From a virus: DNA of 60,075 bases. Shown here one piece after another: positions 3,823-59,560 of the stretch (positions are counted from its first letter, which is position 1; every line of letters begins with the position of its first letter). The notes below the pieces were generated by a model. That model had not been told where the DNA came from and ran no database searches. It was given only the letters and a program-made list of their open reading frames with translations. The position numbers were made by a program, and so were the translations under genes. Location of the stretch: the IMG/VR virus record IMGVR_UViG_3300025133_000112, positions 1 to 60,075 of that record; one strand, written 5' to 3'.

Positions 3823-4494
3823 ATGCGATACTTAGTATATAAAATAACGAATTTAATAAATAATAGAATTTATATAGGAATTCATAGAACAAAAGATATA
3901 AATGATGATTATATGGGTTCTGGTAAAATTTTAAATCTAGCTAAAGAAAAATATGGACTAGATAAATTTAAAAAAGAAATTCTTTATGATTTTGATACAG
4001 AAGAAGAAATGCTTCTTATGGAAGAAAAGATAGTTAATGAAGAATTTCTTTTGAGACCAGATACTTATAATTTAATTAAAGGTGGAATTGGTGGATGGCC
4101 ATATAATAAAGTTATTATAAAAGATAAAGATGATAATAAATTTATGGTGTCAATTGATGATCCAAGATATTTATCTGGTGAATTTGTATCTTTAGTTAAA
4201 AATACATTAAATGTTAAAGATAAAAATGGAAATATTTTTAGAATTTATATTGATGATCCAAGATATTTATCTGGTGAATTAATACCTATTTGGTGTAATA
4301 GAAGTCATAGTGATGAAACTAAAAAGAAAATAAGTAAATCTGTTTCTAAAAGTATATCTGGTAAAAATCATCCACAATATGGTAAATGTTGGATTTATAA
4401 TTTAGAATTAAAGAAAAGCAAATCTATACCTAAAGATGAATTAGAAAATTGGATTAAAGATGGATGGGTTAAAGGACGTAAATTAAATTTTTAA
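3823..4494 (+). CDS. GIY-YIG homing endonuclease with NUMOD3-type DNA-binding segment
   Basis: 223 residues. Residues 1-90 form the GIY-YIG nuclease core: YLVYKITNLINNRIYIGIHRT (the two Tyr motifs appear as LVY and YIG), a DDYMGSGK loop, and Glu in MEEKIV. Residues ~105-165 contain an internal duplication in which DDPRYLSGE occurs twice, 37 residues apart, each copy preceded by a DK.(D/G)N stretch. Residues ~167-190 (RSHSDETKKKISKSVSKSISGKNHPQYGK) are a NUMOD3 module that contacts DNA. Such free-standing Seg-like enzymes cleave intronless relatives and drive their own spread. The gene directly follows a truncated tRNA-Leu, which suggests that tRNA genes are or were its target. RBS AAAGGAGAAG. 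Confidence 0.9.
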   Translation: MRYLVYKITNLINNRIYIGIHRTKDINDDYMGSGKILNLAKEKYGLDKFKKEILYDFDTEEEMLLMEEKIVNEEFLLRPDTYNLIKGGIGGWPYNKVIIKDKDDNKFMVSIDDPRYLSGEFVSLVKNTLNVKDKNGNIFRIYIDDPRYLSGELIPIWCNRSHSDETKKKISKSVSKSISGKNHPQYGKCWIYNLELKKSKSIPKDELENWIKDGWVKGRKLNF

Positions 4495-6872: not shown

Positions 6873-7417
6873 TTTATCATATATCCTTTAATAAATTTTG
6901 GATCTATTTTCTTAGGCATCCTTATTTCTGTTAACATATAATAGTCTAAATCTGAACCGCCATTTTCTATATGTTTTTCATATAAATCTTTATCAATTAA
7001 CTTTTTTCTTTGAGTATCCATATTACCACGAGCAGCACCCATTTTCTTTAAAAAATCCTTTTGCTTCATTTGAATGACAAATACAAGTCTTTCATTCATT
7101 GGAGTATTTTTAGATTTTTTACCAGCACTTCTAAATGAAGATTTTGTTTTTTCTAAAGTCTTTGATTCTCCGCCCATAACACTCATTGAAGCATATGCTC
7201 TAGAAGTCATTGGATCTAATGCTAAAGATACCCATCCAGCAGTAGGTCCTTCGGTTGGTGCAACTATTCCATTCTTTTGAATAAATTCCAAATTATTTAT
7301 ATGAGTACCATGATAAAATGTAACAGGATCACTATCTAACCACCATCCAATTTTTGGATTAAAGTTAGATGGTATTTTCTTTATAGCTTCACTTAAATAT
7401 TCAATAAATGATATCAT
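6869..7417 (-). CDS. ADP-ribosyltransferase-like protein with capsid-targeting-type leader
   Basis: 182 residues. Leader MISFIEYLSEA is identical over ten residues to the next gene's leader and resembles the T4 internal-protein capsid-targeting sequence (basic/aromatic start, ending LxE, the gp21 cleavage consensus). The body looks like a minimal ART fold: FYHGTHINNLEFIQKNGI (residues ~33-50, first motif with YHGT), GWVSLALDPMTSRAYAS (~61-77, second motif), and a late TEIRMP...I segment (~164-170) carrying the expected Glu. By analogy with T4 Alt it could be packaged and injected to modify host proteins. Fold assignment by pattern only; target unknown. RBS is in the duplicated region (GGAGAGATAG ahead of ATG). 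Confidence 0.5.
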   Translation of the reverse strand: MISFIEYLSEAIKKIPSNFNPKIGWWLDSDPVTFYHGTHINNLEFIQKNGIVAPTEGPTAGWVSLALDPMTSRAYASMSVMGGESKTLEKTKSSFRSAGKKSKNTPMNERLVFVIQMKQKDFLKKMGAARGNMDTQRKKLIDKDLYEKHIENGGSDLDYYMLTEIRMPKKIDPKFIKGYMIK

Positions 7418-8642: not shown

Positions 8643-10658
8643 TTAATATTTGTATAAATTAAAAGTAGAATCATCAGTATTTGTAGACATATCATTACTA
8701 ACAACAGAATAATTGCTACTATTTGAAACAACTGAATTATTTTCAGTTTTAACAGGTTCTTTAATTATTTTCTCTTTAACTTCATTTTTCTTATTTTCTA
8801 TTTGTACTGCTTCTAAAGCATTTAAATTTGTATTTAATTCAATTTGATCAAATAAATCTTTATTAATATTAGCTGATTCAATCATATCAGCATCAACATT
8901 ACTATCAATATTACTACTATCAACAATTGAATAATCTACCATTAAATCTGGTTGTTCAATATTAACAGGAGGTGCTGTTACTTCAACATTCCATACTTTA
9001 GATAATTCTTCTTCTGATAATTCTTTACGATCTGATCCCATTTCATTTAAAAAATCTTGAAATGCATCTTCTCTAGCAATACCATATGATTCTATATCAC
9101 CAGTCCATTCTACATTTTTTGCTTCAGTTTCTATAAATCTTTTTCTATATGATCTTAATTCATCATCAGAAAATTTTAAATATAAGTCTGCATTTTCTTG
9201 CATTTGTTTAGATTGACTTTCTCTTAATTGTTGTAAGTCTTCTTGTTCTAATTTTAAATCTAAAGCCCAATCTCTTTCAATTATAAGTTCTTCACCTTGT
9301 ATAACCATTAATGCAGCTTTTTGTTTTATTAATAATGCAGCAGTTGCTTTATCAACAATTGTTTCTGCATTTTTAAAGGTATCAGCTAACATACCTAATC
9401 TTTCAGATTCTAATTTCCATCTTGCTTCTTGTTCAGCATCTAATTTGTCATAAATCTTATTCATTAATGGAGAAATAACTTTTTTGTTTAATAAAGTACC
9501 AATACCAAAACCAATTGCACCAGCAACAGCAACTCCTAATGCAGGTAATGCTAATGAAACAGCACCAGATAAAGCAGTTCCTAATCCACCAACTACAGTA
9601 GTAATAACACCACCTAATTTAGTACCAAGACCAGCAAGAATAGAACTAATTTTTACACCTAAAATACCCTTTAATGAATCAAAAAATCCACCTGTTTCTT
9701 CTTGTGTTTCTGATTGATCTCCTTTAATATCTAAAAGATCTTTAAGGAGATCATTTCTTTCATCGTCTCTATTTATATTTTCATCTTGTTGCTGTTCTAT
9801 TAAAAAGGAATCTTCATTTTGTTTAGTATATTGGTCTTCACCATTCTTAACTAGTAAATTAAAATTAGATATTAAATCTTTAAATCCTTCAGTATTTACA
9901 GTTAATATTTTATCAAATAAATTAAAATCATTTTCAAAATATTCTTTATCTGATTCTTCTGACTCAATTGATATATCATTTGTTGCAGGTTCAATTGATA
10001 TATCATTTGTTGCAGGTTCAAGTTTATCAGATATATTATCATTTGATTCTAAAATAGGTTCAATTGATATATCATCTACTATAACATTAATATCATCAGG
10101 ATCACTTTCAGTATCTTCTTTTGACTCAATTGGTATATTATCTGTTGTAGGTTCAATTTTATCAGGTGGTTGTTCTACATCACCTAATGTAGATTCTTCC
10201 TTAATATTTCTAATTTCATCTAAAGTATTAGAAATAGTATCACTCATCATACTTATAATAGGAGAACCAGTTAATACACTTATATTTTTTATAATATTTT
10301 TTGGTTTAAAGGAATCTTTAATATCACCAATAACTTCAGATGTTTTCTTTGATGCTTTCTCTTTTGTTTTCCCTACTGCTGTACCAACAAATCCTTTCTT
10401 ATCTTCTTTTCTTTGTTTCTTTTCTTTTTTCTCTTTTTTCTTATCACTCTTTTCTTCTCTTTCAGATTCATTATTAAAATCTTCATTTTGTTTCTTAAGA
10501 GTATTAGAAATTTTAGACATCATAGAACTAAATAATTTAGAAGATTTCTTCATATTATCATTTAGCTGACTTGTATTTTCAATAATTTGTTCTAAATCCC
10601 TTTTTTCATTATTTATGGATTCATTAATTGTTTCTAATTTATCATTATTATCTGCCAT
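8643..10658 (-). CDS. Tail tape measure protein
   Basis: 671 residues. Evidence is architecture and position rather than sequence identity. Long charged coiled-coil N-terminus (Lys/Glu-rich, residues ~50-110). Disordered acidic middle with a repeated IEPATNDISIEPATNDIS. Glycine/alanine-rich hydrophobic stretch at ~332-395 (ILAGLGTKLGGVITTVVGGL and onward) typical of tape measures that cross the host membrane. A helical, Gln/Glu-rich C-terminus follows. It sits directly after the gp26-like chaperone and its frameshift extension, the canonical place of a tape measure. At about 0.15 nm per residue it would set a tail of about 100 nm. Counterpart of T4 gp29. Confidence 0.7.
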   Translation of the reverse strand: MADNNDKLETINESINNEKRDLEQIIENTSQLNDNMKKSSKLFSSMMSKISNTLKKQNEDFNNESEREEKSDKKKEKKEKKQRKEDKKGFVGTAVGKTKEKASKKTSEVIGDIKDSFKPKNIIKNISVLTGSPIISMMSDTISNTLDEIRNIKEESTLGDVEQPPDKIEPTTDNIPIESKEDTESDPDDINVIVDDISIEPILESNDNISDKLEPATNDISIEPATNDISIESEESDKEYFENDFNLFDKILTVNTEGFKDLISNFNLLVKNGEDQYTKQNEDSFLIEQQQDENINRDDERNDLLKDLLDIKGDQSETQEETGGFFDSLKGILGVKISSILAGLGTKLGGVITTVVGGLGTALSGAVSLALPALGVAVAGAIGFGIGTLLNKKVISPLMNKIYDKLDAEQEARWKLESERLGMLADTFKNAETIVDKATAALLIKQKAALMVIQGEELIIERDWALDLKLEQEDLQQLRESQSKQMQENADLYLKFSDDELRSYRKRFIETEAKNVEWTGDIESYGIAREDAFQDFLNEMGSDRKELSEEELSKVWNVEVTAPPVNIEQPDLMVDYSIVDSSNIDSNVDADMIESANINKDLFDQIELNTNLNALEAVQIENKKNEVKEKIIKEPVKTENNSVVSNSSNYSVVSNDMSTNTDDSTFNLYKY

Positions 10659-10836
10659 GTTTTTTCATATTTCCTTCTTTCTTAAGAGCCTTAACTGTTA
10701 GAGCTGAATTAATTTCTAATTCATATGGATAAAGAGTCATAATAGAATGATAATCGAAATCGCTATATCTTTGAAATTTAAATACTTTTTCATAATATTT
10801 CATAATATTGCTATTTTCGATTATTTGATGTATCCT
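10648..10836 (-). CDS. -1 frameshift extension of the gp26-like chaperone
   Basis: 62 codons in the -1 frame downstream of T TTT TTA (10842-10836), ending TAA at 10650-10648 and overlapping the tape measure ATG (10658). It reads RIHQIIENSNI MKYYEKVFKF QRYSDFDYHS IMTLYPYELE and on. An internal ATG (10803) has no clear RBS. Fused product would be 232 + 62 = 294 residues. Long-tailed phages commonly make two tail-assembly chaperones from such an arrangement just upstream of the tape measure gene. The 0-frame stop comes only four codons after the slip site. Frameshifting itself is inferred. Confidence 0.65.
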   Translation of the reverse strand, partial: RIHQIIENSNIMKYYEKVFKFQRYSDFDYHSIMTLYPYELEINSALTVKALKKEGNMKKHGR

Positions 10837-11531
10837 AAAAAATCAATGACTTGGTCAAACTCCTCTTTGTTACAAAATGGACATTTTGTTTTTATTTCCA
10901 TACTCAAAGTAATAAGTTTATCTATTTCTGTAGTTAATATTTTAATTTGAGCAGCGCTTAGATTTTTTATAACATTTTTTATTAATTCTTGTGGATCTTC
11001 ATTTTTAATTATTTGTTTATTAAAAATTATTCTTTTAGTAGAAAAGGCAATTTTATTTAATTTCTTATCATATTTATCATCTTCATTTGAAATTGTCTTT
11101 GTTATTAAAAAATTAGTAGGACATAATTCAAATGATAATTCATCAGATATTTTAATAACTGATTTTATTTTATCTTCATCTTTATATACTAAAGATTTTT
11201 CAACATCTAATTTAAATTCATATGATTTTTCACATTCTGAACATTTATTTCTTTTTAGTGTTAAAATTTCATCAGTACTTTTAGATCTAAGAAAAACTAC
11301 AATTTTAACAAAATCAATTAATGATAATTCATCAATATCTATTTCTGTTATTAAACAATCTTTTAATACAAATAAATAATTAGTTATTAAATCATTTATA
11401 TTATCAGATTCTAAAGCAGTTAGAATTAGTTTTTCATGACCAATATTATATGGTCTATACTCAATTTCTTTATTTAAAACATGTAAAAAAACTCTATGTA
11501 CTGGAGCAACATTTATCTCTGGAATATTCAT
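10821..11531 (-). CDS. 26: Baseplate hub / tail-assembly chaperone (gp26-like, T4_baseplate family)
   Basis: 236 residues (T4 gp26 is 208). The N-terminal pattern VHRVFLHVLNKEIEYRPYNIGHEKLILTA fits the family in which a target peptide is followed by P....E..L..A. Two CxxC pairs, KCSECEK (~102) and KCPFCNK (~220), probably bind zinc. The C-terminal helix ends ...FDQVIDFLGYIK. In T4, gp26 is needed for hub assembly around the tape measure gp29. Here a -1 slippery site lies five codons from the stop and the tape measure follows, so this looks like the short chaperone of a frameshift pair. Confidence 0.75.
   Translation of the reverse strand: MNIPEINVAPVHRVFLHVLNKEIEYRPYNIGHEKLILTALESDNINDLITNYLFVLKDCLITEIDIDELSLIDFVKIVVFLRSKSTDEILTLKRNKCSECEKSYEFKLDVEKSLVYKDEDKIKSVIKISDELSFELCPTNFLITKTISNEDDKYDKKLNKIAFSTKRIIFNKQIIKNEDPQELIKNVIKNLSAAQIKILTTEIDKLITLSMEIKTKCPFCNKEEFDQVIDFLGYIK
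10836..10842 (-). promoter_or_regulatory. Candidate programmed -1 ribosomal frameshift site T TTT TTA
   Basis: On the - strand the 0-frame codons are GAT TTT TTA GGA TAC ATC AAA TAA. The heptamer TTTTTTA is in the exact phase needed for tandem P/A-site slippage, and the -1 frame is then open for 62 codons. Confidence 0.65.
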
Positions 11532-11554: not shown

Positions 11555-12307
11555 TTATAGTGATCTATTTACTAATTTAAAATTCTTTTGAGCTTTTCTC
11601 GATAAAACATTTCCTGAATTTATTTTTGCTGCTGGGTCAAAACCTAATTTATTTTCAATTTTGTAAAGATTTTCTTGTCCTATTATTCCACCAATTTTAG
11701 AACGTAATGTGTCTAATGGAAAACCAATATTTCCAAGAAAAAAACTACTATATTGAGCTTGACGTTCTTGTTGGTGAATTTGATATTCTGGATTTATATG
11801 ATTATTTACAACCAAATAGGCAACTTCATCAAATGCAACACTAATAGATAATGTTGTGAGTGTATCATTTTGGTCATAACCTAATTGTATATCTTCAATA
11901 TTAACTAAAGTAGCATTTAAAAGAAATGCTGACATTTTTATATCACCACGATTATTATATAATTCTATACTAATTTGTACATTATATTCTGATCTATAAC
12001 CTAATTGACCGTTTTCTGTTCTAATTACAGATATCCATTTATTAATAAATTCAAATAATTTATTGTTTTGATCAACATAAAAAGTAAAATTAGCTGGATC
12101 ATAATCAAAGTCTTGAGCTATATTTTGTTTTTTATTATCAAGAATAAATTGCTTTGTATTTATAGTCAAAAATGGAAAAGACGCATCTTTACAAAGATAC
12201 GAAACACTTTCATCACCTGTTTCTATAAATGGTGATGAAAATTGAACTTTGTAAAGATTTGGCTTTAAAAATCCAGTAAAATTAGATTTTATATCATTAA
12301 TTAGCAT
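11555..12307 (-). CDS. Tail-tube-like baseplate protein (gp19 paralog, gp54-like role)
   Basis: 250 residues. N-terminus IKSNFTGFLKPNLYKVQFSSP parallels the next gene, gp19 (FKANFINGARPNLYKMEISG), followed by the tube-fold hallmarks YLCKDASFPFLTI and F.Y.....FTFYVDQNNKLFEFINKW. The extra ~90 C-terminal residues distinguish it from gp19. T4 gp54, which starts tube polymerisation, also has a tube-like domain, so a tube-initiator or hub-capping role is likely. The pairing with gp19 in one operon (2-nt gap) supports this. Exact T4 equivalence is uncertain. Confidence 0.65.
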   Translation of the reverse strand: MLINDIKSNFTGFLKPNLYKVQFSSPFIETGDESVSYLCKDASFPFLTINTKQFILDNKKQNIAQDFDYDPANFTFYVDQNNKLFEFINKWISVIRTENGQLGYRSEYNVQISIELYNNRGDIKMSAFLLNATLVNIEDIQLGYDQNDTLTTLSISVAFDEVAYLVVNNHINPEYQIHQQERQAQYSSFFLGNIGFPLDTLRSKIGGIIGQENLYKIENKLGFDPAAKINSGNVLSRKAQKNFKLVNRSL

Positions 12308-12309
12308 TA

Positions 12310-12795
12310 TTATACTTTATTCCAATTTGTATATCTTAATTCTACAGTATATTCTGCTATTGTATCTGTGCTTTCAAATGATAGTTCAACAGGTGAAATA
12401 TTAATAGGCCATAATCCAACAAGTTCATAATTAGTCAAATCATCACCTTGTTGATCAAGAAGTATAATATTTCCTGTTCTTTCATACTCTGCTGGAGTAG
12501 CACCAAACATAGCATCATTGTTTTTAATTTCTTCCATCCATGATTCCATAGCTGTTCTAATAACCAGATCTGTATCCATAAGAACTGTTATAGAAATTGG
12601 CTCAAAAACAACATCACCAGCAACGTGATGCTTCATGTTAAGAAATGGAACTTCAATTTCACCGATAGTTTTACCAGGAAGTTGAGTGGCTTTACACATA
12701 AAACGAAGTTTATCTGCTATGCCTGATATTTCCATCTTATATAGATTAGGACGTGCACCATTAATAAAGTTTGCTTTAAACTCTGATATTCTCAA
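12310..12795 (-). CDS. 19: Tail tube protein gp19
   Basis: 161 residues; T4 gp19 is 163. Polymerises into hexamer rings that form the inner tail tube. The diagnostic series is present in order: ARPNLYKMEISG, FMCKATQLPG (T4 FQCKATALPA), NMKHHVAGDVVF (T4 NRKINVAGDRTF), ATPAEYERTG, LVGLWPINISPVELSF (T4 LWPTNVGELQLDW) and the closing TVELRYTNW. RBS AAGGAGACA. A perfect late element lies 38 nt upstream, fitting a major virion protein. Confidence 0.95.
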   Translation of the reverse strand: MRISEFKANFINGARPNLYKMEISGIADKLRFMCKATQLPGKTIGEIEVPFLNMKHHVAGDVVFEPISITVLMDTDLVIRTAMESWMEEIKNNDAMFGATPAEYERTGNIILLDQQGDDLTNYELVGLWPINISPVELSFESTDTIAEYTVELRYTNWNKV

Positions 12796-59344: not shown

Positions 59345-59560
59345 ATGAAATCTTTTAAAGAGTATTTAATAGAATTTTTTAATGAAGGTAATCAAATTCC
59401 TCTTTTGAGAAGAAAAGGAATTAATGGATCAAAAGTATTTTGCCCTAAATGTGGTAAAACATTTGTGTATTATAAACAAAAAACTCAATGTAGGCATTGT
59501 AAATCAAATATTGTTTCTACTATGCAAACTAACGATAAATTAGATAATGAATTAAATTAG
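59345..59560 (+). CDS. Small zinc-ribbon protein with capsid-targeting-type leader
   Basis: 71 residues. Leader MKSFKEYLIEFFNEG matches the T4 internal-protein type (MKxFxEFLxE) and the leaders at 6869 and 7498, with LIE as a possible gp21 site. The body carries KVFCPKCGKTFVYYKQKTQCRHCKSNI, two CxxC pairs. A packaged DNA- or RNA-polymerase-binding ribbon is inferred. Directly after gp4, in the late head-completion block. Confidence 0.55.
   Translation: MKSFKEYLIEFFNEGNQIPLLRRKGINGSKVFCPKCGKTFVYYKQKTQCRHCKSNIVSTMQTNDKLDNELN

Follow-up and report, generated by a model that had tools for sequence, protein, structure and literature searches.

How does a phage with a T4-type contractile tail make its tail-assembly chaperones: as separately encoded proteins, or as a short and a long form of one protein linked by a -1 frameshift? 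The question is raised by a locus in a 60,075-nt stretch of viral DNA from a distant relative of phage T4 (the whole stretch analysed here, hereafter the window), which carries a T4-type gene set (gp23 capsid, gp5 OB domain, gp53, gp15 and sheath genes) and in which the order of the locus is tail tube, tube paralogue, gp26-like gene, extension and tape measure. Its features are as follows.

12795-12310 and 12307-11555, minus strand: two gp19-like tail tube genes (phrog_45 tail tube, E 1.9e-50 and 5.6e-25)
11531..10821, minus strand: gp26-like gene, 236 aa, proposed short tail-assembly chaperone (TAC-N); PF12322, phrog_150
10860..10866, minus strand: Shine-Dalgarno (SD)-like AGAGGAG, 17 nt upstream of the heptamer, a possible 5' stimulator
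10842-10836, minus strand: slippery heptamer T TTT TTA, in X XXY YYZ phase and at the same place in relatives
10823-10821, minus strand: frame-0 stop TAA, 12 nt 3' of the heptamer
10648..10836, minus strand: -1 frame extension, 62 codons plus stop, homologue of the T4 gp51 C-terminal part (TAC-NC C-domain)
10801..10803, minus strand: sole early ATG of the extension, with no SD and 3' of conserved residues
8643..10658, minus strand: tape-measure gene, 671 aa, identified by position, length and a weak phrog_934 tape measure match (E 0.0013)

The tail tube genes (11555-12795, minus strand) lie in tandem upstream of the chaperone gene and are of unequal length. Elsewhere in the window, the neighbouring minus-strand proteins at 7417 and 7824, the second of which has a weak GNAT match, share the leader MISFIEYLSE within a repeat whose roughly 47 identical bases take in the SD, and a plus-strand protein at 59345 begins MKSFKEYLIEF; we take these leaders to resemble the capsid-targeting leaders of the injected internal proteins of T4. 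A GIY-YIG/NUMOD3 homing-endonuclease-like gene related to T4 SegE lies at 3823-4494 on the plus strand.

The identity of the gp26-like protein was established by profile comparison. It matches PF12322 (T4_baseplate) at 69.7 bits, against a Pfam cut-off of 24.5 (E 3.8e-19), and phrog_150 (baseplate hub) at E 1.8e-16. An AF2 model of the protein (pLDDT 89) has as its best BFVD matches the gp26/baseplate hub proteins of T4-like phages. We used chain B of 2OB9, the HK97 gp13 tail-assembly chaperone, as a fold reference; Foldseek against the PDB placed it at rank 13 with a non-significant E of 2.0 (probability 0.47, TM 0.40 on target), and a sequence search of the PDB returned chance matches only.

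The gene ends, on the minus strand, in ...GTC ATT GAT TTT TTA GGA TAC ATC AAA TAA. A sequence-only reading of this DNA had placed TTTTTTA in the exact phase for a -1 slip at this 3' end, and both the sequence and its coordinates are as it described. A TGA at 10845-10843 closes the -1 frame immediately 5' of the heptamer, after which the frame is open from AGG (10836) to the TAA at 10650-10648. The 62 open codons claimed for it, ending just inside the tape measure, are likewise borne out, the end overlapping the tape-measure ATG (10658) by 11 nt. A virtual -1 fusion of the gp26-like gene and the extension is 294 aa long, with the predicted junction peptide ...VIDFLRIHQIIENSNIMK....

Such an arrangement might arise by chance in AT-rich DNA, or a sequencing frameshift might have split one gene. 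TTTTTTA is indeed a frequent word in the window (81 counted, 89 expected), and 7 of 59 window genes have an in-phase X XXY YYZ heptamer within their last 30 nt. By comparison, only one gene of the 59, the gp26-like gene, has a slip frame that stays open for more than 10 codons beyond the stop (57 codons). The sole near-identical contig (L001/L090) shows no differences, leaving an artefact that much room, and is therefore unusable for substitution or coding tests. Against both chance and artefact stand the homology of the extension to gp51 and the recurrence of the junction in relatives, to which we now turn.

By tblastn the extension alone gave no significant match (best E about 2), and profile methods were required. 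Compared with phrog_634, the 'baseplate hub assembly catalyst' family of T4 gp51, it matches over residues 5-59 of 62 with E 2.3e-7. The homology thus begins nine residues 5' of the sole early ATG, which is residue 14, and the relatives aligned to the extension similarly begin about 10 residues upstream of the ATG at 10803. Joining the extension to the gp26-like protein raises the phrog_634 score from 32 to 38.3 bits, across the junction (fusion E 2.7e-9), and the phrog_150 score from 61 to 66 bits, with residues 10-284 of the fusion covering positions 13-281 of the 282 in the profile. When such fusions are made into a profile, its alignment with T4 gp51 runs unbroken through the junction, from residue 16 to 246 (51 bits, hhalign 97.8%), while with T4 gp26 only the N part of the same profile is aligned. 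By this profile comparison T4 gp51 consists of PF12322 followed by an extension-type C-terminal domain; T4 thus encodes, in frame and separately, what a frameshift would yield here. The claim that a frameshift gives a short gp26-like chaperone and an extended form gains support from this homology across the junction, as far as sequence comparison can carry it.

Another way to obtain the gp51 domain would be to translate it on its own, as a separate 51-aa gp51-like protein made by reinitiation at the ATG at 10803, with the heptamer incidental. This ATG lies 17 nt past the gp26-like stop; TAATG or TGATG overlaps accompany the heptamer in L096, Cr30, phiM7 and Ps15; GenBank annotators list short gp51 genes in cyanophages; and in two relatives, L097 and L101, an ATG stands 1-3 nt after the gp26 stop and there is no heptamer. 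That the extension has no convincing start of its own, as the sequence-only reading had it, is correct in that the ATG at 10803 lacks an SD, its anti-SD duplex being +0.1 kcal/mol against -4 or lower in 74% of 57 window genes, but an ATG does exist.

Further evidence against reinitiation comes from the stretch that such a start would leave untranslated. There are conserved residues 5' of the ATG at 10803, and in the cyanophages the -1 codons from the frame-0 stop to the first ATG show coding periodicity: codon 7 of the extension is His or Tyr with an invariant second base, and the second base of codon 5 is also invariant. Moreover, in seven informative heptamer loci (L003, L092, L111, L112, L114, L117 and L118) a scan beginning at the -1 stop 5' of the site and reaching about 14 codons past the heptamer shows no ATG, GTG or TTG; L098, whose sequence breaks off at the contig edge, is left out of this count. 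Since T4 gp51 carries the junction covalently, and since the synonymous sites of the heptamer are frozen in relatives, we consider reinitiation an unlikely source of the extension.

The frozen sites emerged from a comparison of the junction across 121 loci, in 112 of which gp26 was found and its 3' end read mechanically. The closest relatives of the window were located via the tail sheath. Searches of viral contigs with the gp26 of the window and that of a Desulfovibrio phage gave no relatives beyond one identical contig, and a search with the tail sheath stabiliser recovered only that same contig. An alignment of six gp26 sequences contained no stretch sufficiently conserved to serve as a search profile. 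In 85 distinct cyanophage-type loci, gp26 ends in a T-ending codon followed by TTT TTC, one codon before the stop, each of the three positions holding in 85 of 85; the preceding codon is AGT in 42, TCT in 37, GGT in 3, GAT in 2 and AAT in 1. The second Phe codon of this site (L010-L089) is always TTC and never TTT (85/85). In the rest of the same gp26 genes TTT makes up 74.5% of Phe codons and T-ending codons 63% of serine codons, and the third base is invariant in only 6 of 241 codon columns, three of which are the slip-site columns. The cyanophage loci are related and we therefore attach no probability to this pattern; what carries the argument is how these columns differ from the rest of the same genes. 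The complete lack of synonymous variation at the slip site is a second line of support for the frameshift.

Outside the cyanophages, the in-phase heptamer is found in phages of Desulfovibrio, Caulobacter, Sinorhizobium, Stenotrophomonas and Methylophilales, in C48C1, and also in Cronobacter phage LPCS28 and Aeromonas phage 65. In the cyanophage-type loci and the Desulfovibrio, Caulobacter, Sinorhizobium, Cronobacter and Aeromonas phages, an in-phase T TTT TT(C/T) precedes a -1 extension. Nearer to the window, gp26 ends in T TTT TTA TAG in L092 and in T TTT TTC TAA in L096, L098 and L103, and in L099 T TTT TTC stands 12 nt before the stop, the spacing seen in the window. Comparison of the junction in related phages, which had been proposed as a check, thus finds the in-phase T TTT TTN and the extension conserved together even in distant relatives. 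The junction, with its frame-0 stop retained, recurs in more than 90 independent loci and finished genomes, and we regard this conservation, as read from the aligned sequences, as the main and decisive argument against a chance origin; that chance or a sequencing error produced the junction is hardly credible.

The conservation also bears on a third possibility, that RNA polymerase slips on the T run and yields mRNAs one base longer or shorter, so that the fusion is made without any ribosomal slip. The site is a run of six T, and some relatives (Cr30, phiM7, Melnitz-3 and C48C1) have seven or more. Six T is short for slippage of this kind, however, and all 85 cyanophage sites end in C, so that the run is not lengthened. 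In every case the site is phased as X XXY YYZ, and the presence of an SD-like element 5' of it fits ribosomes. Polymerase slippage is therefore very improbable as the source of the fusion.

Not every relative conforms to the pattern. Relatives whose extension has its own start, named by the sequence-only reading as evidence against a frameshift, do occur: in L097 and L101 there is neither a heptamer nor a Phe-Phe end, and the extension forms an ORF of its own that begins with an ATG, 1 nt past the stop of gp26 and in the +1 frame in L097 (L097:5403-6334), 3 nt past it and in frame 0 in L101 (L101:7422-8346). Both are fragments from one metagenome and lie near the window by sheath, and they imply that the device is not universal in the clade. 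It is possible, though we hold this only tentatively and on the sequences of these two fragments, that phages of the window's clade can do without a covalent link between the two chaperone forms, and that L097 and L101 have lost the slippery site and make a free small gp51-domain protein from this ATG. If true, T4-type phages would use three interchangeable ways of providing the domain: frameshift, duplication with fusion, and split genes. L101 (L101:129-2955) also has a terminase-like gene that, compared with L097, appears to be interrupted by intein-like inserts.

A second group of exceptions keeps the -1 phase and has no canonical heptamer. In the Ackermannviridae (Kuja, VAP7 and Vi01) and Vibrio phage K452, the slip region (L004, L110, L113 and L119 for Kuja, Vi01, VAP7 and K452) reads CTT TTT, GTT TTT or ATT TTC. 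The -1 frame of Vibrio phage Kuja is open, and VAP7 and K452 also have TAATG. These phages may use another slip site or reinitiation. The GTTTTT among them resembles a motif of the Vandenendeviridae (PMC12846349).

We also examined the junction for elements that might promote a slip. In the window the AGAGGAG region pairs with the anti-SD at -6.4 kcal/mol, which beats every control position in the gp26-like gene. In the cyanophages (L010-L089) an SD-like GAGGG precedes the heptamer by about 9 nt, and mean anti-SD pairing there is -7.2 kcal/mol against about -1 to -3 kcal/mol elsewhere; the element of the window, at 17 nt, is thus farther from its heptamer. An SD-like element in such a position resembles the 5' stimulator of E. 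coli dnaX. Structure downstream of the slip site averaged a z of -1.5 in 99 loci and was weak in the window (+0.7 for 60 nt, -2.1 for one 91-nt stretch), and no downstream stimulatory structure was found in L112 or L003. We dropped it as a part of the device, being inconsistent across loci and weak in the window.

In a census of PF12322 genes across 20 records, 19 have one such gene (the window and 18 others, the latter mostly whole genomes of 141-252 kb) and T4 has two, gp26 and gp51. In most of the census records phrog_634 lies directly 3' of gp26. The window, 60 kb that probably belong to a larger genome, has no second PF12322 gene fused in frame to a gp51 domain. The window thus resembles T4 in that its gp26-like protein belongs to PF12322 and its fusion aligns with gp51 across the junction; it differs in having one gene plus a -1 frame extension where T4 has two separate PF12322 genes on opposite strands. 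This one-gene versus two-gene pattern again favours the frameshift.

Taken on the sequence elements, their phase, the homology across the junction and the conservation described above, a -1 frameshift at T TTT TTA very probably yields both a short chaperone, the gp26-like protein, and a long one, the equivalent of gp51. In the mechanism that we infer, most ribosomes would end at 10821 and produce the 236-aa gp26-like protein (TAC-N). A minority would fall back by one base on T TTT TTA (10842-10836), possibly with help from the SD-like AGAGGAG 5' of it, and continue in the -1 frame to produce a 294-aa TAC-NC that ends in the gp51 domain. If phage λ is a guide, both forms would coat the tape-measure protein and the gp51 domain would recruit tube subunits. 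The locus would then encode tail-assembly chaperones in the manner of λ G/GT, in a phage with a T4-type contractile tail.

The slip site of λ, GGGAAAG, differs from that of the window, and that of P2, TTTTTTG, is close to it. Compared by layout, not by sequence similarity, λ G/GT and P2 E/E' share with the window a -1 slip near the 3' end of a gene before the tape measure, from which two forms result, one short and one long (PMC5009743). That 2016 review describes G-T frameshifting as widely conserved in long-tailed phages 'except T4'; the sequence-only reading had noted that T4 is usually described as an exception. The chaperones (TAC) of T4-like phages were identified by Vladimirov, Gautam and Davidson (2022, Virology 566:9-15, PMID 34826709). 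As summarised in the passage of PMC10885494 that cites this work, some T4-like phages carry a short gene and a separate fused long gene, and only some do without frameshifting; PMC12846349 cites the same work for poly-T slippery signals in T4-like TAC-N genes. Going by these citing statements, the principle of frameshifting in T4-like phages is very likely already described and thus not new.

PMC12846349 itself reports a -1 TAC frameshift in the Vandenendeviridae and Andersonviridae (phage Adele). Phage Adele is like the window in having a contractile tail, a poly-T site (GTTTTT) and a -1 frame open to the tape measure, and its downstream part was annotated as a separate hypothetical gene (PMC12846349); it differs in that these are other phage families and the motif is not a T TTT TTN heptamer. 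A further parallel is the cyanophage gp51 reported by Sullivan et al. (2010), which has about 20% of the normal length and misses the first ~200 residues (PMC3037559). It comprises the same C-terminal domain after gp26 but was treated as a short gene (PMC3037559); a frameshift from gp26, which would supply the missing N-terminal part, explains why it looks truncated. T4 requires gp51 to assemble, and the finished particle does not contain it (PMC3004832); by homology the same would hold for the long form of the window.

GenBank records GU075905, GU459069, KJ019040, FQ312032 and OM638103 either list the extension as a gene of 26-30 aa or leave it out, probably because it lacks a start codon. 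Many genomes thus mis-annotate or miss the extension gene. What the present analysis adds is a further member, the breadth of conservation, the upstream SD-like element and the two close relatives with a separate extension ORF. The slip becomes testable in cultured phages such as S-PM2 or P-HM2. The data point to frameshifting as the usual condition in the T4-like group at large, from the cyanophages to phages that infect several proteobacteria (two Straboviridae outside Tevenvirinae among them), with the two genes of T4 as an in-frame alternative to it.
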